Below are positions 33,516 to 40,414 of a stretch of 64,000 nt of DNA, one piece after another. The translations under genes and the position numbers were made by a program. The stretch comes from Selenomonadaceae bacterium (GTDB lineage: Bacteria > Bacillota > Negativicutes > Selenomonadales > Selenomonadaceae): positions 1 through 64,000 of the forward strand of contig JAQYBD010000098.1 in assembly GCA_029338835.1 (NCBI GenBank), read 5' to 3'. The notes beneath the pieces were generated by a model. It ran no database searches. It was not told where the DNA came from and saw only the letters and a program-made list of their open reading frames with translations. Positions within the stretch are counted from its first letter, which is position 1; each line of letters begins with the position of its first letter.

Positions 33516-33544
33516 TTGACAAGCATACCCCGACTTGTTATAAT
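33516..33544 (+). promoter_or_regulatory. Perfect consensus promoter of the methylmalonyl-CoA mutase operon
   Basis: TTGACA (33516-33521) and TATAAT (33539-33544) are both exact consensus and separated by exactly 17 bases. The transcript would start near 33551, just before the cobalamin riboswitch. With so strong a promoter, expression should be set mainly by the leader. Confidence 0.9.
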
Positions 33545-33576
33545 TGCTTATGGTAAAATAAAAATTACATATAGAG

Positions 33577-33736
33577 GATCAGGTGTCGCAAGACTTAATA
33601 GGGAAGCCGGTGAAGTCCGGCGCGGTCCCGCCACTGTATCAGCGAGTCACGCTGCATAAATGTCACTGAATAAGGAGAAGCTTATTTGGGAAGGCGCAGC
33701 ATGATGATGAACTGGAGCCAGGAGAACTGCCTGATC
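33577..33736 (+). ncRNA. Cobalamin (adenosylcobalamin) riboswitch aptamer
   Basis: The conserved cobalamin riboswitch core is present: GGGAAGCCGGTGAAGTCCGG, CGGTCCCGCCACTGT, and the B12 box GAGCCAGGAGAACTGCCTG near 33715-33733. The closing P1 helix is seen as GATCAG (33577-33582) with CTGATC (33731-33736). The riboswitch lies upstream of a cobalamin-dependent enzyme rather than a cobalamin synthesis or uptake gene, which is unusual. Whether it turns expression on or off cannot be told from sequence. Confidence 0.95.
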
Positions 33737-33794
33737 AACGATTACCGTTTGACCTGCGAGCGATGGGAAGGCAATCCAGACCCTTCATAAGAAG

Positions 33795-33837
33795 ACTGCA
33801 TGTAGTATAGATATAGATAGATACGATACATAGCAGT
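33795..33837 (+). other. Leader hairpin downstream of the cobalamin aptamer
   Basis: ACTGC-ATGTA-GTAT pairs with ATAC-TACAT-GCAGT (with a GA and an A bulge) around an A/T-rich loop, giving about 14 base pairs between the aptamer and the first terminator. It has no T tract and may be part of the riboswitch expression platform. Confidence 0.5.
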
Positions 33838-33858
33838 ATTGGAACTGAATGGATTTTG

Positions 33859-33897
33859 GATGGCTCTTTCCACGCGGAAAGAGCCATCAGCGTTTTT
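33859..33897 (+). terminator. First terminator in the mutA leader
   Basis: A perfect 13-base stem GATGGCTCTTTCC/GGAAAGAGCCATC with loop ACGC is followed by AGCGTTTTTATG. It is strong and lies about 120 bases after the aptamer, so it is the likely switch point for the riboswitch. It is enclosed by a 12-base inverted repeat (33842-33853 with 33969-33980). Confidence 0.85.
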
Positions 33898-34144: not shown

Positions 34145-36340
34145 ATGAGCAAAAAAGAATCAGCCGGCGCAGATGCCGAACTTGATCTTCAAGCCATCTT
34201 GAAGAAAGCGGAAGCACAGACGGATTTCCCCGATGTGCCTTTCGACGAGTTCACACCGCCAACGTATGAGGAATGGAAGGAAAACTGTATTGCTCTCTTA
34301 AAAGGTGCGCCTTTTGACAAAAAGATGTACACCAAGACATATGAGGGCATCACATTTGACCCGATGTATTTCCGCAAGACAACGGAAGACATCCTGCCGC
34401 GTACGTCCTTCCCTGGCCTTACCGACTTCATGCGCGGTGCAAGGCCGAATGGCTACATCGATCTTCCCTGGGGCATCGCCCAGGCCTGCGATGAAACAAT
34501 GCCGGCAGAAAACAATGCCCTGCTGAAGCACGAAGTGAAAAACGGCTCGACGATCTATAATGTAAAGGTCGATGATGCCACGCTGCTCTGCGAGGATGTC
34601 CGCGAAGCCAAACACCCTGGAAAGAAGGGTGTAAGCCTCACGACACTTGCTGATATGCATACGCTTCTTGACGGGCTCAAGCTCGACAAATATCCGCTGT
34701 ACCTCTACGGCGGCAAAACGGCCTTGCCCCTGCTCGCCATGACAGCAGCCGCGTATAAGGCCTCTGGCGGCCATGTAGAAAAACTGCAGGGCTTTATCGG
34801 TGCCGATCCGATCGGCGAACTTGCCAGCCGCGGCACATCAGGCGTCGCGCTTGATGCCCTGTGGGATGACATGGCAGCCTGTGCCAAATGGGCACAGAAA
34901 CATGCCCCGGGCCTGCGCACCGTGATGGTAAAAAGCGATGTATACAGCAACGGCGGCGCCAATGATGTACAGGAAATGGCTTATACGCTGGCCACGGCCA
35001 CGACGTATCTGCGCGTCCTGATGGAACGCGGCCTGACCATTGACGAAGCTGCCTCCACGATCATGTTCACTTATTCCATGGGTGCAAACTTCTTCCTGCA
35101 GATTGCCAAGCTGCGTGCGGTCCGCCCGCTCTGGGCCCAGATCGTCAAGGCTTTCGGCGGCAGCACGGATGCACAGGTCATGCATATTCATGCCCGTCCG
35201 GCACTCTTCTTCAAGACGGTATACGATCCTTACGTCAACATGCTCCGCAATACGACGGAAATCTTCTCCGGCGTTGTCGGCGGCCTCGATTCCTTCGAGA
35301 ATGCAACATTCGATGAACCGATCCGCAAGGGCGATGAATTCTCCCGCCGCATTGCACGCAACGTGCAGATCATCCTGCAGGAAGAATTCGGCATGCTGCA
35401 GCCAATTGACCCGGCCGGCGGCTCCTGGGCAGTTGAAACGCTGACCAAGCAGATGAAAGAAAAGATCTGGAAGGCCTTCCAGGATGTCGAGGCACAGGGC
35501 GGCATTCTGCCTGCACTCCGTCAGGGAGAACCGCAGGCGGCGATCACGGCCATTCTGGAGAGCCGGTTCAAAAATTCCGAATTGCGCCGCGACCGCATTG
35601 TCGGCAACAACATGTATCCGAACATGACGGAAAAACGCCTGGATCCGCGTCCGGAAGATGAGGCCGCCATCCGCAAAGACCGCACGGCTGAAGTTCAGGA
35701 ATACCTCAGCGATATCGACACCGAGCATAAAGATAAATGTCTGGATGATCTCCAGCAGGCTTCGGTGGATGACCGCGTAGAAAAGGCCATTGCTGCCGCT
35801 TCTGCCGGCGCCACGCTGACAGAACTCGCCGCCAGCTCCAAAGCCGGCCAGCCCGAGACTGTCGCTCCCATCACGGCACATCGCTGGAGCGAGCGCTTTG
35901 AAAAATTGCGCCGCCGCACGGAGGATTACAAGGAAGCCCATCAGGACAATGTCAAGATTTTCCTTGCTAACATGGGCCCGATTCCGCAGCATAAGGCACG
36001 TGCCGACTTCACGACTGGTTTCCTGCAGGTCGGTGCCTTCGAGGTACTTGGCAACGACGGCTTTAAAACGCCGGAGGAAGCAGCAAAAGCAGCAGCAGAA
36101 TCTCATGCCGATGCCGTTGTCATCTGCTCGACGGATGCCACGTATCCGGAAATCGTGCCGCAGCTCGCACCGCTTCTCCACAAGGCACTGCCTGAAGCCC
36201 GCGTTTTCCTCGCCGGTGCAGCACCGAAAGATCTGCTTGAGACCTACAAAGAGGCCGGAATTGATGACTATATTTCGGTGCGGGCAAATTGTTACAATAT
36301 TCTCCTCTCCTTGCAGAAAAAGAAAGGAATGATGGAATAA
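34145..36340 (+). CDS. mutA: Methylmalonyl-CoA mutase, small (non-catalytic) subunit
   Basis: A 731-residue mutase subunit that pairs with MutB to interconvert succinyl-CoA and (R)-methylmalonyl-CoA in propionate formation. It has the TIM-barrel mutase domain and a C-terminal cobalamin-domain fold, but the cobalamin motif DxHxxG is replaced ([18 protein letters not shown]), as in other small subunits. The start ATG at 34145 has GAGGAGG shortly upstream. The frame is by chance open back to 33839 through the terminator hairpins, but this part has no coding character. The stop overlaps the mutB start (TAATG). Confidence 0.95.
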
Positions 36341-38538
36341 TGGCTGCAGAATATCCTGATTTCGCCCATATGCCGCTTGCCTCCCAGCCGGAACACACAG
36401 AAGCGGAATGGAAAGCCCTGCTGGAAAAAACCGTGGGCAAACATTACGATGAACTGACTCAGCGCACGATGGAACACATTCCCATCAAGCCCTTCTATAA
36501 TCACGACGAATACGACCACATGAATCATCTGGATTTCGCCAGCGGCATTCCGCCCTGCCTGCGCGGACCGTATTCAACCATGTACGTCTTCCGTCCCTGG
36601 ACGGTACGTCAGTACGCCGGCTTCTCCACAGCCGAAGAATCCAACGCTTTCTACCGCCGCAACCTGGCTGCCGGCCAGAAAGGTCTTTCGATCGCATTCG
36701 ACCTGCCGACGCATCGCGGTTACGATGCCGATAACCCGCGTGTACTCGGCGACGTCGGCAAGGCTGGCGTTTCGGTCTGCTCCATGCTCGACATGAACAT
36801 CCTGTTCTCCGGCATTCCGCTCGACCAGATGTCCGTCTCCATGACCATGAACGGCGCCGTTCTGCCGATTCTCGCATTCTTCATCCAGTCCGGTGTTGAA
36901 CAGGGCGTCGATAAGAAGATCCTTTCCGGTACGATCCAGAATGATATCCTCAAGGAATTCATGGTCCGCAACACGTACATTTATCCGCCAGATATGTCGA
37001 TGCGCATCATCGGTGATATCTTCGAATACACGACGAAATACATGCCGAAATTCAACAGCATCTCGATTTCCGGCTATCATATGCAGGAAGCCGGTGCTAC
37101 GGCAGATATCGAACTCGGCTACACGCTGGCTGACGGCCTTGAGTACCTGCGCACCGGTATCAAAGCCGGACTGGAAGTCGATGCCTTCGCTAAGCGCCTT
37201 TCCTTCTTCTGGGCCATCGGCAAGAACTACTTCATGGAAGTCGCCAAAATGCGTGCCGCACGTGTACTCTGGGCCAAGATCGTCAAATCCTTCGGCGCCA
37301 AGAACCCGAAATCCATGGCACTGCGCACGCACTGCCAGACGTCCGGCTGGTCGCTTACAGCTCAGGATCCTTTTAACAACATCGCCCGCACCTGTATGGA
37401 AGCCATGGGCGCAGCACTCGGCCATACGCAGAGCCTGCATACGAACGCACTCGATGAAGCCATCGCCCTGCCGACCGATTTCTCGGCCCGCATCGCCCGC
37501 AATACGCAGCTCTACATTCAGGATGAGACGCGCGTCTGCAAGATCATCGATCCATGGGGCGGCTCCTACTACGTCGAAGCCCTCACGAACGAGATCATCC
37601 GCCGTGCCTGGGCTCATATCCAGGAAGTCGAATCCCTCGGCGGCATGGCCAAAGCTATTCCGACCGGCCTGCCGAAAATGCGTATCGAAGAAGCCGCTGC
37701 ACGCCGTCAGGCAAGAATCGACTCCGGCAACGAGACGATCGTCGGCCTCAACAAATACCGTCTGGAGAAGGAAGATCCTCTGGAAATTCTCTCCATCGAT
37801 AACACGGCCGTCCGCAATGCACAGATTGCCCGCCTCGAAAAACTGCGCCGCGAACGCAATGACGATGATGTACGCCGTGCCCTCGAGGCAATCACCAAGG
37901 CAGCTGAAAGCCGCGAAAACGGCAACCTGCTCGAATGTGCTGTAGAAGCCGCCCGCGTCCGCTGCTCGCTCGGTGAAATTTCCGATGCAGTTGAAAAGGT
38001 ATCGGGGCGTTATCAGGCTGTCATTCACACGATTTCCGGCGTCTACTCCTCCGAATTCACGGATAAGACCGAGCTTGAAAAAGCCCGTGCCCGCGCCGAT
38101 CAGTTCGAGGAACTCACCGGCCGCCGCCCGCGTATCTTTGTCGCCAAGATGGGCCAGGATGGACACGACCGCGGCCAGAAAGTCATCGCCTCCTCCTTCG
38201 CCGATATGGGCTGGGACGTCGATGTCGGACCACTGTTCCAGACGCCGGAAGAAACGGCTCAGGATGCTGTGGATAACGATGTCCATATCGTCGGTTTCAG
38301 TTCGCTCGCAGCCGGCCACAAGACGCTGCTGCCTCAGCTGGTCGAAGACCTCAAGAAACTCGGACGCGAGGATATCATGGTCTGCATCGGCGGCGTCATT
38401 CCGGTACAGGATTACGACTTCCTGTACAAACACGGTGCTGTCGCCATCTTTGCACCTGGCACGAATATTCCGGAAGCAGGCATCAAACTGCTTGACCTCC
38501 TGATCGATAAAGCAAAACAGGAGATCGCTGCTTCTTAA
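36340..38538 (+). CDS. mutB: Methylmalonyl-CoA mutase, large catalytic subunit
   Basis: A 732-residue catalytic subunit. The substrate barrel includes [20 protein letters not shown] and [19 protein letters not shown], and the C-terminal cobalamin domain has the axial-ligand motif DGHDRG (H609) and [16 protein letters not shown]. It carries out the adenosylcobalamin-dependent carbon-skeleton rearrangement, heterodimerising with MutA. The start ATG shares its first base with the mutA stop, so translation is coupled. In this organism it probably runs from succinyl-CoA towards propionate. Confidence 0.97.
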
Positions 38539-38599: not shown

Positions 38600-39808
38600 T
38601 TGGCTGAGAAATATACGGTTTCGCGCCCCAGCTGGGCACCGGATCCTGATGATCACCACCATCACTACGATCCCAATTTTGCCTGCGGTGTCATGAGCGG
38701 CATTGACAATGTCAAAGACGCAGCCGGCGGCAATCTGAATCCCGGCCTGAAAGACGGGACCATGCACCTCAAACGGCGTCTGGTTCCGACTGAAGATGAC
38801 TATGTGAAAGGTGTTCTTGCCGGCGACAGGATGATGCTCTCCCGGGCTATCACCCTGATTGAAAGCAACAGTCCGCGCCATTTTCCCCTGGCTCAGCGCG
38901 TCCTCCAGCGCCTGCTCCCCTATACGGGGCATGCACTGCGCATCGGCATCACTGGCGTACCGGGTGCCGGCAAAAGTACCATGATCGAGGCGCTCGGCAA
39001 TATGCTCTGTGATGACGGGCACCGCGTTGCCATCCTGACCGTAGATCCCACGAGTACGGTTACGAGAGGATCCATACTGGGTGATAAAACCCGCATGGGA
39101 ACCCTTTCCCGCCGCAAGGAAGCCTATATAAGGCCTTCGCCTGCCGGCGGCACACTGGGTGGCGTGGCGCGCAAAAGCCGTGAAACCATGCTGCTCTGCG
39201 AGGCAGCCGGTTATGACACGCTGCTCATTGAAACCGTGGGTGTCGGACAGAGTGAAACCACGGTGCGCTCCATGGTTGACTTTTTCATGCTGGTCGTACT
39301 GACCGGTGCCGGCGATGAACTGCAGGGCATCAAGAAAGGCATCATGGAACTTGCTGATGCTATTGTCGTCAACAAGGCCGACGGTGACAATCTCCTGCGC
39401 GCCAAAGTGGCCCGCGGAGAATTTGAACGCATGCTGGAATTCATCCAGCCGGCAACACCGGGCTGGGCCACGCATGCCTACATGGTTTCCGCGGTCAAGC
39501 ATACCGGTCTCAAAGAACTCTGGCAGGTCATCCAGGCGTTTGCCCAGAAGACAAAAAAAGACGGCGTTTTTGACAAGCGCCGTCATGGCCAGCTCATCGA
39601 CTGGATGCAGAGCATGATCGACGAACATCTGCATAATCTCTTTTTTGACGATCCCGTCATCAAGGGACGCATGCCAGAGGTTCGCGATGCCATCCTGCAG
39701 GGCGCTATTTCACCGACGCAGGCCGTGGCAGAACTCATCAGCATCTTCGATGTCCAGCGTGCCGCACAGCGGCAGGTTGATTTGTTACACCCCAGAAAGG
39801 AAGATTGA
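38600..39808 (+). CDS. meaB: MeaB/ArgK-family GTPase, mutase chaperone
   Basis: A 402-residue G3E P-loop GTPase that loads and protects adenosylcobalamin on methylmalonyl-CoA mutase. Walker A is GVPGAGKST (119-127); TVDPTSTVTRGSILGDKTRM, ETVGVGQSE and VVNKADGDN are the other nucleotide-binding motifs. The start is TTG with AAAGGAGG 7 bases upstream. About 65 residues precede the usual start of the family and include a His/Asp cluster (DDHHHHYD, residues 17-24), an unusual feature. It follows mutB by 61 bases in the same operon. Confidence 0.94.
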   Translation: MAEKYTVSRPSWAPDPDDHHHHYDPNFACGVMSGIDNVKDAAGGNLNPGLKDGTMHLKRRLVPTEDDYVKGVLAGDRMMLSRAITLIESNSPRHFPLAQRVLQRLLPYTGHALRIGITGVPGAGKSTMIEALGNMLCDDGHRVAILTVDPTSTVTRGSILGDKTRMGTLSRRKEAYIRPSPAGGTLGGVARKSRETMLLCEAAGYDTLLIETVGVGQSETTVRSMVDFFMLVVLTGAGDELQGIKKGIMELADAIVVNKADGDNLLRAKVARGEFERMLEFIQPATPGWATHAYMVSAVKHTGLKELWQVIQAFAQKTKKDGVFDKRRHGQLIDWMQSMIDEHLHNLFFDDPVIKGRMPEVRDAILQGAISPTQAVAELISIFDVQRAAQRQVDLLHPRKED

Positions 39809-39810
39809 TA

Positions 39811-40344
39811 ATGTTCCTGAAAAAAATCAGTGTCTCAGGCGGAGATCCCCGCGAATTACAGGCCGTTTTTTCTGACGTTCCCGGCATTGTGGATTCCTTT
39901 GTCGGCACGATACAGACCGATGAGGAGTGCGTCCAGGGCCTCGCCCTGCATTTCGACCCCAAGCGGATTGATCTCTCCATGATCCTCGATCTCTTATTCG
40001 CTGTCGTCGATCCTCACCTGCCCGATGGACAGGGCGACTGGCGCGGTCCGGCATACCGGGCTGGCGTCTGGTATGAAGATGAGGAAGATCTGCCGCAGCT
40101 GGAACTTTATATGAACTTCCTGCGCAATCGGGGAAAAAGCCCTGCTGCAACGAATGCCAAGCTCACGATCAATGATCCGAACACGACTAAAAAAGTGCAG
40201 CATTGCTATGCCGGCATTCACCGGCAGAACAGCTTTACAGCAGCGCCGCCTATGGATCAGCATTATTACAAAACCCACGATACATCTGATGCTTATATTG
40301 ATTTCGATAAGCTTCGTGCTTATGTGAAATACAGCTGGGAATAA
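39811..40344 (+). CDS. MsrA-fold protein lacking the catalytic cysteine
   Basis: A 177-residue protein that aligns along its length with peptide-methionine (S)-S-oxide reductase MsrA. Examples are LQAVFSDVPGIVDSFVGT, LALHFDPKRIDLSMILDLLFAVVDPH and DGQGDWRGPAYRAGV, which keeps the family QGxDxGxxYR pattern. The catalytic GCFWG is replaced by GDPRE, with aspartate (D12) at the cysteine position and Arg at the Trp; the GYAGG motif is lost too. It therefore should not reduce methionine sulfoxide by the known mechanism. It is the last gene of the mutase operon (ATG three bases after the meaB stop), where an epimerase might be expected. I infer a structural or accessory role; function unknown. Confidence 0.8.
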   Translation: MFLKKISVSGGDPRELQAVFSDVPGIVDSFVGTIQTDEECVQGLALHFDPKRIDLSMILDLLFAVVDPHLPDGQGDWRGPAYRAGVWYEDEEDLPQLELYMNFLRNRGKSPAATNAKLTINDPNTTKKVQHCYAGIHRQNSFTAAPPMDQHYYKTHDTSDAYIDFDKLRAYVKYSWE

Positions 40345-40380: not shown

Positions 40381-40414
40381 AAAAGACCTCCGATCATCGT
40401 CGGAGGTCTTTTTC
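40381..40414. terminator. Bidirectional terminator ending the mutase operon
   Basis: A perfect 9-base stem GACCTCCGA/TCGGAGGTC (40385-40393 with 40400-40408) is preceded by AAAA and followed by TTTTT. It lies 40 bases past the MsrA-like gene and could also stop transcripts from the opposite direction. Confidence 0.88.

Follow-up and report, generated by a model that had tools for sequence, protein, structure and literature searches.

Methylmalonyl-CoA mutase and its chaperones (MeaB/MMAA and MMAB) have a central place in rumen propionate fermentation and in human methylmalonic aciduria. The P. shermanii mutase has a beta chain, MutA, which is a paralogue of the catalytic subunit MutB and a degenerate enzyme copy that is retained in the complex for a structural or regulatory role. 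A study of M. extorquens determined that MeaB gates, loads and protects the cofactor of the mutase (PMC10356863). The mutA operon of Veillonella parvula is preceded by a cobalamin riboswitch, and cobamides cause repression through it in a B. subtilis reporter (PMC9600662).

In this work, a mutase operon from a Selenomonadaceae bacterium is discussed in which the last gene encodes a relative of MsrA (PF01625, TIGR00401; PDB 5fa9, 3bqf, 1ff3) that no longer has the residues of a methionine sulfoxide reductase. The whole stretch of DNA that was analyzed is 64,000 nucleotides long and is called the window below. The protein, pseudo-MsrA, shares with MsrA its fold (Z up to 23.2), the GG turn, the GY/QYR surroundings and a common ancestry in the protein tree. 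Unlike MsrA, it lacks the nucleophilic and resolving cysteines and the active-site Trp, Glu and Asp, carries a C-terminal insertion with an NDPN motif, and is encoded in a mutase operon. It resembles MeaB/MMAA in its operon and in the task proposed for it here, which is help with the B12 cofactor of the mutase, but it has no P-loop or GTPase and an unrelated fold; because meaB is retained alongside it, pseudo-MsrA would be an additional partner and not a substitute for MeaB. The likeness to MutA would be that of a degenerate enzyme copy kept as part of the same complex, except that MutA derives from MutB and pseudo-MsrA from an unrelated enzyme family. The riboswitch is placed as in V. parvula, a member of the same bacterial class, ahead of a Negativicutes mutA operon; the mutase loci read in f35, presumed to be the Veillonella family, contain no MsrA-like gene. 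Nothing relevant on an MsrA-like protein together with methylmalonyl-CoA mutase or meaB was found in the open-licence papers searched, to which the role of a mutase-linked pseudo-MsrA is new; the fold itself is known. The features of the operon are listed in Table 1.

Table 1. Features of the mutase operon in the window, with positions counted from the first nucleotide of the window.
Feature	Position	Strand	Details
Sigma-70-type promoter-like site	33516-33544	+	TTGACA-17-TATAAT, 12/12, extended TG; consensus match only
Cobalamin riboswitch aptamer (RF00174)	33564-33748	+	96.5 bits; gathering threshold 31.5
13-bp hairpin, then TTTTT, between aptamer and mutA	33859-33888	+	Fold -23.7 kcal/mol
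mutA, small non-catalytic subunit of methylmalonyl-CoA mutase	34145-36340	+	Start ATG 34145 behind AGGAGG
MutA Glu117 codon (GAA)	34493-34495	+	Residue 219 when the long ORF from 33839 is counted
mutB, catalytic subunit of methylmalonyl-CoA mutase	36340-38538	+	One-base overlap with the mutA stop
meaB, mutase chaperone (G protein), N-terminally extended long form	38600-39808	+	TTG start, good ribosome-binding site
MsrA-like (pseudo-MsrA) gene, Cys-less product	39811-40344	+	ATG 39811, stop ends 40344; 177 aa
Intrinsic-terminator-like hairpin and T-run, operon end	40381-40412	+	Palindromic, detected on the - strand

The gene order is mutA-mutB-meaB followed by the MsrA-like gene, which the initial annotation had placed at the end of the operon, a position supported by the hairpin and T-run that follow it; the gap after meaB is two bases and not the three given there. 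MutB scores 1252.6 bits on the MCM model, its best PDB match is the P. shermanii MCM, and the motifs RQYAGFST and DGHDRG are intact as in that enzyme. The same genome has a second mutase locus (contig C106; L029:6410-12376) with a split mutase, a separate B12-binding subunit, a short MeaB and a standard epimerase, and the gamma subunit of methylmalonyl-CoA decarboxylase is encoded further downstream. A different substrate specificity was considered as the reason for two mutases in one genome and was rejected, given the MCM motifs and the MCM score of MutB.

From its layout, the hairpin between the aptamer and mutA is predicted to act as the expression platform in a riboswitch of the transcriptional OFF type. 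No cobalamin riboswitch was found at the second mutase locus in the 20-kb stretch L029, and the operon in the window is thus predicted to be the cobamide-repressed one of the two mutases of this genome. The riboswitch, which is absent from the initial annotation, precedes mutAB across the class, also where the MsrA-like gene is absent, and it precedes the operon in both of the gene orders that contain this gene (MsrA-like gene last or first). The genetic layout shows the MsrA-like gene to be co-regulated with the mutase genes where the operon is intact. The promoter, riboswitch and terminator hairpin (33516-33888) would make this a B12-dependent mutase that is repressed by B12.

The relationship of the protein to MsrA is visible only in part by profile matching. 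Pfam PMSR matches residues 38-119 (42.2 bits against a cut-off of 23.7), the NCBIfam msrA equivalog TIGR00401 scores 35.3 bits and stays below its cut-off of 108.1, and no NCBIfam model reached its own cut-off in the scan. An AF2 model was built from 54 sequences (pLDDT 87, pTM 0.81) and is poorly defined at about residues 107-133, which form the C-terminal insertion. The top match of this model in VIA is T. denticola MsrAB (Z 23.2, 2.1 A, 154 residues), a long run of MsrAs ranks first, and the best protein that is not an MsrA reaches Z 7.5. Foldseek agrees on MsrA, with a best E of 1.9e-12. The alignment with MsrA over the length of the protein that had been proposed holds at the level of the fold, since the model superposes over nearly the whole length. 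Heavy-metal domains and RRM were also returned by Foldseek and VIA (Z about 7, below the MsrAs) and were attributed to a general ferredoxin-like similarity.

The active site was compared between the 45 members of the Cys-less clade in the tree set and 22 ordinary MsrAs of the same class. Each catalytic residue is present in all 22 ordinary MsrAs, whereas the nucleophilic Cys, the Trp, the Asp and the resolving Cys are found in 0/45 members of the clade; such a difference in the Cys column excludes chance as the cause. The catalytic Glu (GHxE) persists in 3/45, all from family f33, which appear to be intermediate. In the protein of the window, GGCFWG has become GGDPRE, so that the nucleophilic Cys is an Asp as had been reported, and the Trp, Glu, Asp and resolving-Cys columns read R, Q, W and A. 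The QGxDxGxxYR region that was said to be kept reads QGDWRGPAYR: its Tyr and Arg stand, and the Asp of QGxD has been replaced by Trp. The former Cys column varies freely in the clade (D, S, N, A, P, Y, E, K; Pro or Ser in f33), and no alternative conserved Cys exists across it. New positions are conserved instead, namely NPKKxD at 49-54 (P50-K51-K52-x-D54), E92-D93, F103, R107 and N121-D122, and the Tyr and Arg of the pocket motif QYR are still common. The model and the alignment together show an MsrA fold with complete loss of the catalytic residues.

Homologues were searched first among 40 relatives, which yielded close homologues in 15 other genomes of the family, each beside a long-form meaB (fragmentary at a contig end in G013). 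A scan of genome contigs with the single sequence returned no homologue, and a scan with a profile built from the 15-row alignment succeeded. The latter returned 80 named loci, all labelled as Selenomonadaceae or with parent-group names (Selenomonas ruminantium, Schwartzia, Anaerovibrio, Pectinatus, Mitsuokella, Megamonas and uncultured Veillonellaceae/Selenomonadales), and meaB lies immediately upstream on the same strand in 62 of the 72 loci with at least 1 kb of upstream sequence. The protein in the window is among the more divergent members of the clade, its closest relative being 53% identical. The family was extended by a wider search that covered 380 genomes from the class. In f33 the order is mutA-mutB-meaB-msrA-like, and in genus g59 of f15 it is msrA-like-mutA-mutB-meaB, with the riboswitch ahead of the MsrA-like gene (L191, L193). 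In genus g12 the genes for MutB, MeaB and the MsrA-like protein all persist on separate contigs or loci, and no riboswitch was found in these loci. All of the mutase-adjacent homologues are without the Cys, and homologues are not spread about without association with the mutase, so that the proposed link between a dead MsrA and mutase/MeaB is borne out. Acyl-CoA binding, which the initial annotation also proposed, may be possible and is neither favored nor disfavored by these results. At one locus (L075:1525-2294, genome G286) the end of mutB is seemingly fused to the MsrA-like gene and meaB is missing, which reflects a deletion or a misassembly.

The genes are also inherited together at the level of whole genomes. 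Among the 189 genomes of f1 (Selenomonadaceae), 146 have both the MsrA-like gene and a long MeaB and 24 have neither, while 8 have only the MsrA-like gene and 11 only the long MeaB (Fisher p 2e-15, phylogeny ignored). True MutB was detected in 6 of the 7 tested carriers in which a long MeaB was not detected, the seventh (G230) being 83% complete, but in only one of the 21 tested genomes with neither gene (G006, at a contig end); the others of these have no MutB or only a split-type mutase (45-50%). The two other species of the genus to which the window belongs lack the MsrA-like gene, MutB and long MeaB, and most members of the class outside the carrier clade never had the MsrA-like gene.

The Cys-less proteins group together in the protein tree as one clade (support 100/99) that spans three families of the class and splits into f1 and f33+f15. 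The nearest proteins on the MsrA side are from f34; these MsrAs retain GGCFWG and the resolving Cys, already possess the C-terminal insertion and are encoded without linkage to mutAB. Four Cys-bearing MsrAs that share the C-terminal insertion of pseudo-MsrA (L154, L156, L160 and L161 in G349, G348, G350 and G351) have GAAE in place of GHxE and look like surviving intermediate stages of its recruitment. In the MeaB tree, f34 is adjacent to one clade containing all carrier operons (100/96), and the MutA tree agrees with this order, with the f34/carrier fork open. The median dN/dS over 58 close pairs is 0.08 and the maximum 0.17, which demonstrates strong purifying selection; these ratios and the tree rule out a local pseudogene. 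Most simply, an MsrA that already bore the insertion would have been recruited a single time, then lost its active site and was afterwards co-inherited with the operon.

Two clades have kept mutAB-meaB without the MsrA-like gene, which is dispensable on this ground: Anaerovibrio genomes G131, G135, G138 and G141, and genus g62 of f15. MutA, MutB and MeaB were screened for columns that are conserved in carriers and changed in both loss clades. At MutA residue 117, all carriers (71/71) have Glu, and all rows of the loss clades (16/16; 6/6 and 10/10, including a few duplicate genomes) have Leu. The E117L change takes two base substitutions, and the codons differ between genomes. MutA has 256 carrier-conserved columns with 2 and 11 fixed changes in the two loss clades, which gives an expectation of 0.09 shared columns against the 2 that were observed; the other is K726R (828 in the long ORF), close to the C-terminus, where one g62 row keeps Lys. 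In MeaB no residue change is common to both loss clades, and MutB shows only a weak N-terminal one, R13G in long-ORF numbering, which falls on or ahead of its true start at 36340. The MutB counterpart of E117 is the Phe in YAGFST, three residues past Tyr89 (located through the Y-to-F change in 5req), and E117 thus lies in the vestigial active-site region of MutA. The Glu is unchanged in g12, where the genes are unlinked. The MsrA-like gene seems to be lost in six g12 genomes and in G242, but these are probably assembly gaps, as the Glu is kept in all five of these g12 genomes in which MutA was readable and in G242. The signal emerged from a post hoc search of about 980 conserved columns in the three proteins and relies on two independent losses, and Glu is also present in 6/12 outgroup rows that never had the MsrA-like gene; for these reasons the change could reflect another cause shared by the two lineages.

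On balance, we favor the interpretation that pseudo-MsrA is a non-catalytic accessory protein of the MutAB-type mutase and MeaB, an old MsrA fold that would have shed its redox chemistry on the way to this function. Several other explanations have to be considered. The gene might be a decaying or neutral passenger that trails meaB, and some lineages have indeed dropped it and kept the operon. Such a passenger is hard to reconcile with a dN/dS of about 0.08, with a single old origin over three families, with the different gene order in f15, with the dispersed and yet retained copies of g12 and with a MutA residue that changes when the gene is lost, and we give this explanation hardly any weight. 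The initial annotation had suggested, as one alternative, that the protein supplies the missing epimerase step, and the mutase operon does hold no epimerase gene. The genome has a standard methylmalonyl-CoA epimerase beside its second mutase (TIGR03081, 154.7 bits against a cut-off of 114.95; C106:9746-10135), an epimerase was also found in each searched relative that carries the MsrA-like gene, and the protein itself has no TIGR03081 match and a model with the MsrA and not the VOC fold. These results make the epimerase role extremely improbable.

It is also conceivable that the protein still handles methionine sulfoxide, by binding, by sensing or with another Cys, and guards the methionines of the mutase from oxidation. 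Its descent from MsrA is consistent with this function, as is the finding that the MsrA-like gene is the sole PMSR match in the 2.24-Mb genome (completeness estimate 100), for which reason the organism probably has no working MsrA, judging from its gene content. We regard this explanation as quite improbable, as all of the catalytic residues are gone, no Cys has been conserved elsewhere and several carriers have an additional normal MsrA. A new enzyme, whose remodeled MsrA pocket would serve another reaction or ligand connected with the mutase (housekeeping of the acyl-CoA hydrolase or decarboxylase type, or removal of damaged cofactor, for example), would account for the polar residues conserved in the clade (NPKKxD, E92-D93, R107 and N121-D122) and for the pocket Tyr and Arg. 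Against it, the former Cys column is variable, the old site holds no uniform new set of catalytic residues, the strongest of the new conservation falls outside that site and the f15 members are strongly diverged; in our judgment this explanation is unlikely.

If pseudo-MsrA is an accessory protein, then it would bind the mutase, and the position of E117 suggests that the face of MutA with the vestigial active site, near this residue, is the most likely place of binding. A mutase made under cobamide scarcity could need help with loading, or the stabilization of empty or inactivated enzyme, and pseudo-MsrA together with MeaB might aid the low-cobamide mutase by loading, holding or protecting its B12 cofactor. 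This would be a third kind of helper for B12-dependent mutases, a chemistry-free MsrA that docks on the vestigial site of MutA and acts with MeaB in cofactor loading or protection of the cobamide-repressed isoform used at low B12; we put this more specific proposal forward tentatively, as a possibility that is rather less probable than its opposite. It would add a conserved former redox-repair protein to the mutase machinery of many rumen and gut Negativicutes and would offer a possible function, as a docking surface, for the non-catalytic MutA subunit. Since the protein passes the Pfam PMSR cut-off, it is easily mis-annotated as a methionine sulfoxide reductase, and organisms like the one studied here may be credited with an antioxidant activity that they lack.

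Additionally, several members of the class without the MsrA-like gene have a small protein of about 80-130 aa encoded after meaB (L217:7807-8199, L218:6895-7191, L219:8957-9247 and L227:6589-6933). It has a motif like GxIDLIEKKYxLxVLDxHYxLVDxxFxRYNxMI, the copies scanned have no Pfam match, and the protein might assist the same mutase as an accessory unrelated to pseudo-MsrA.
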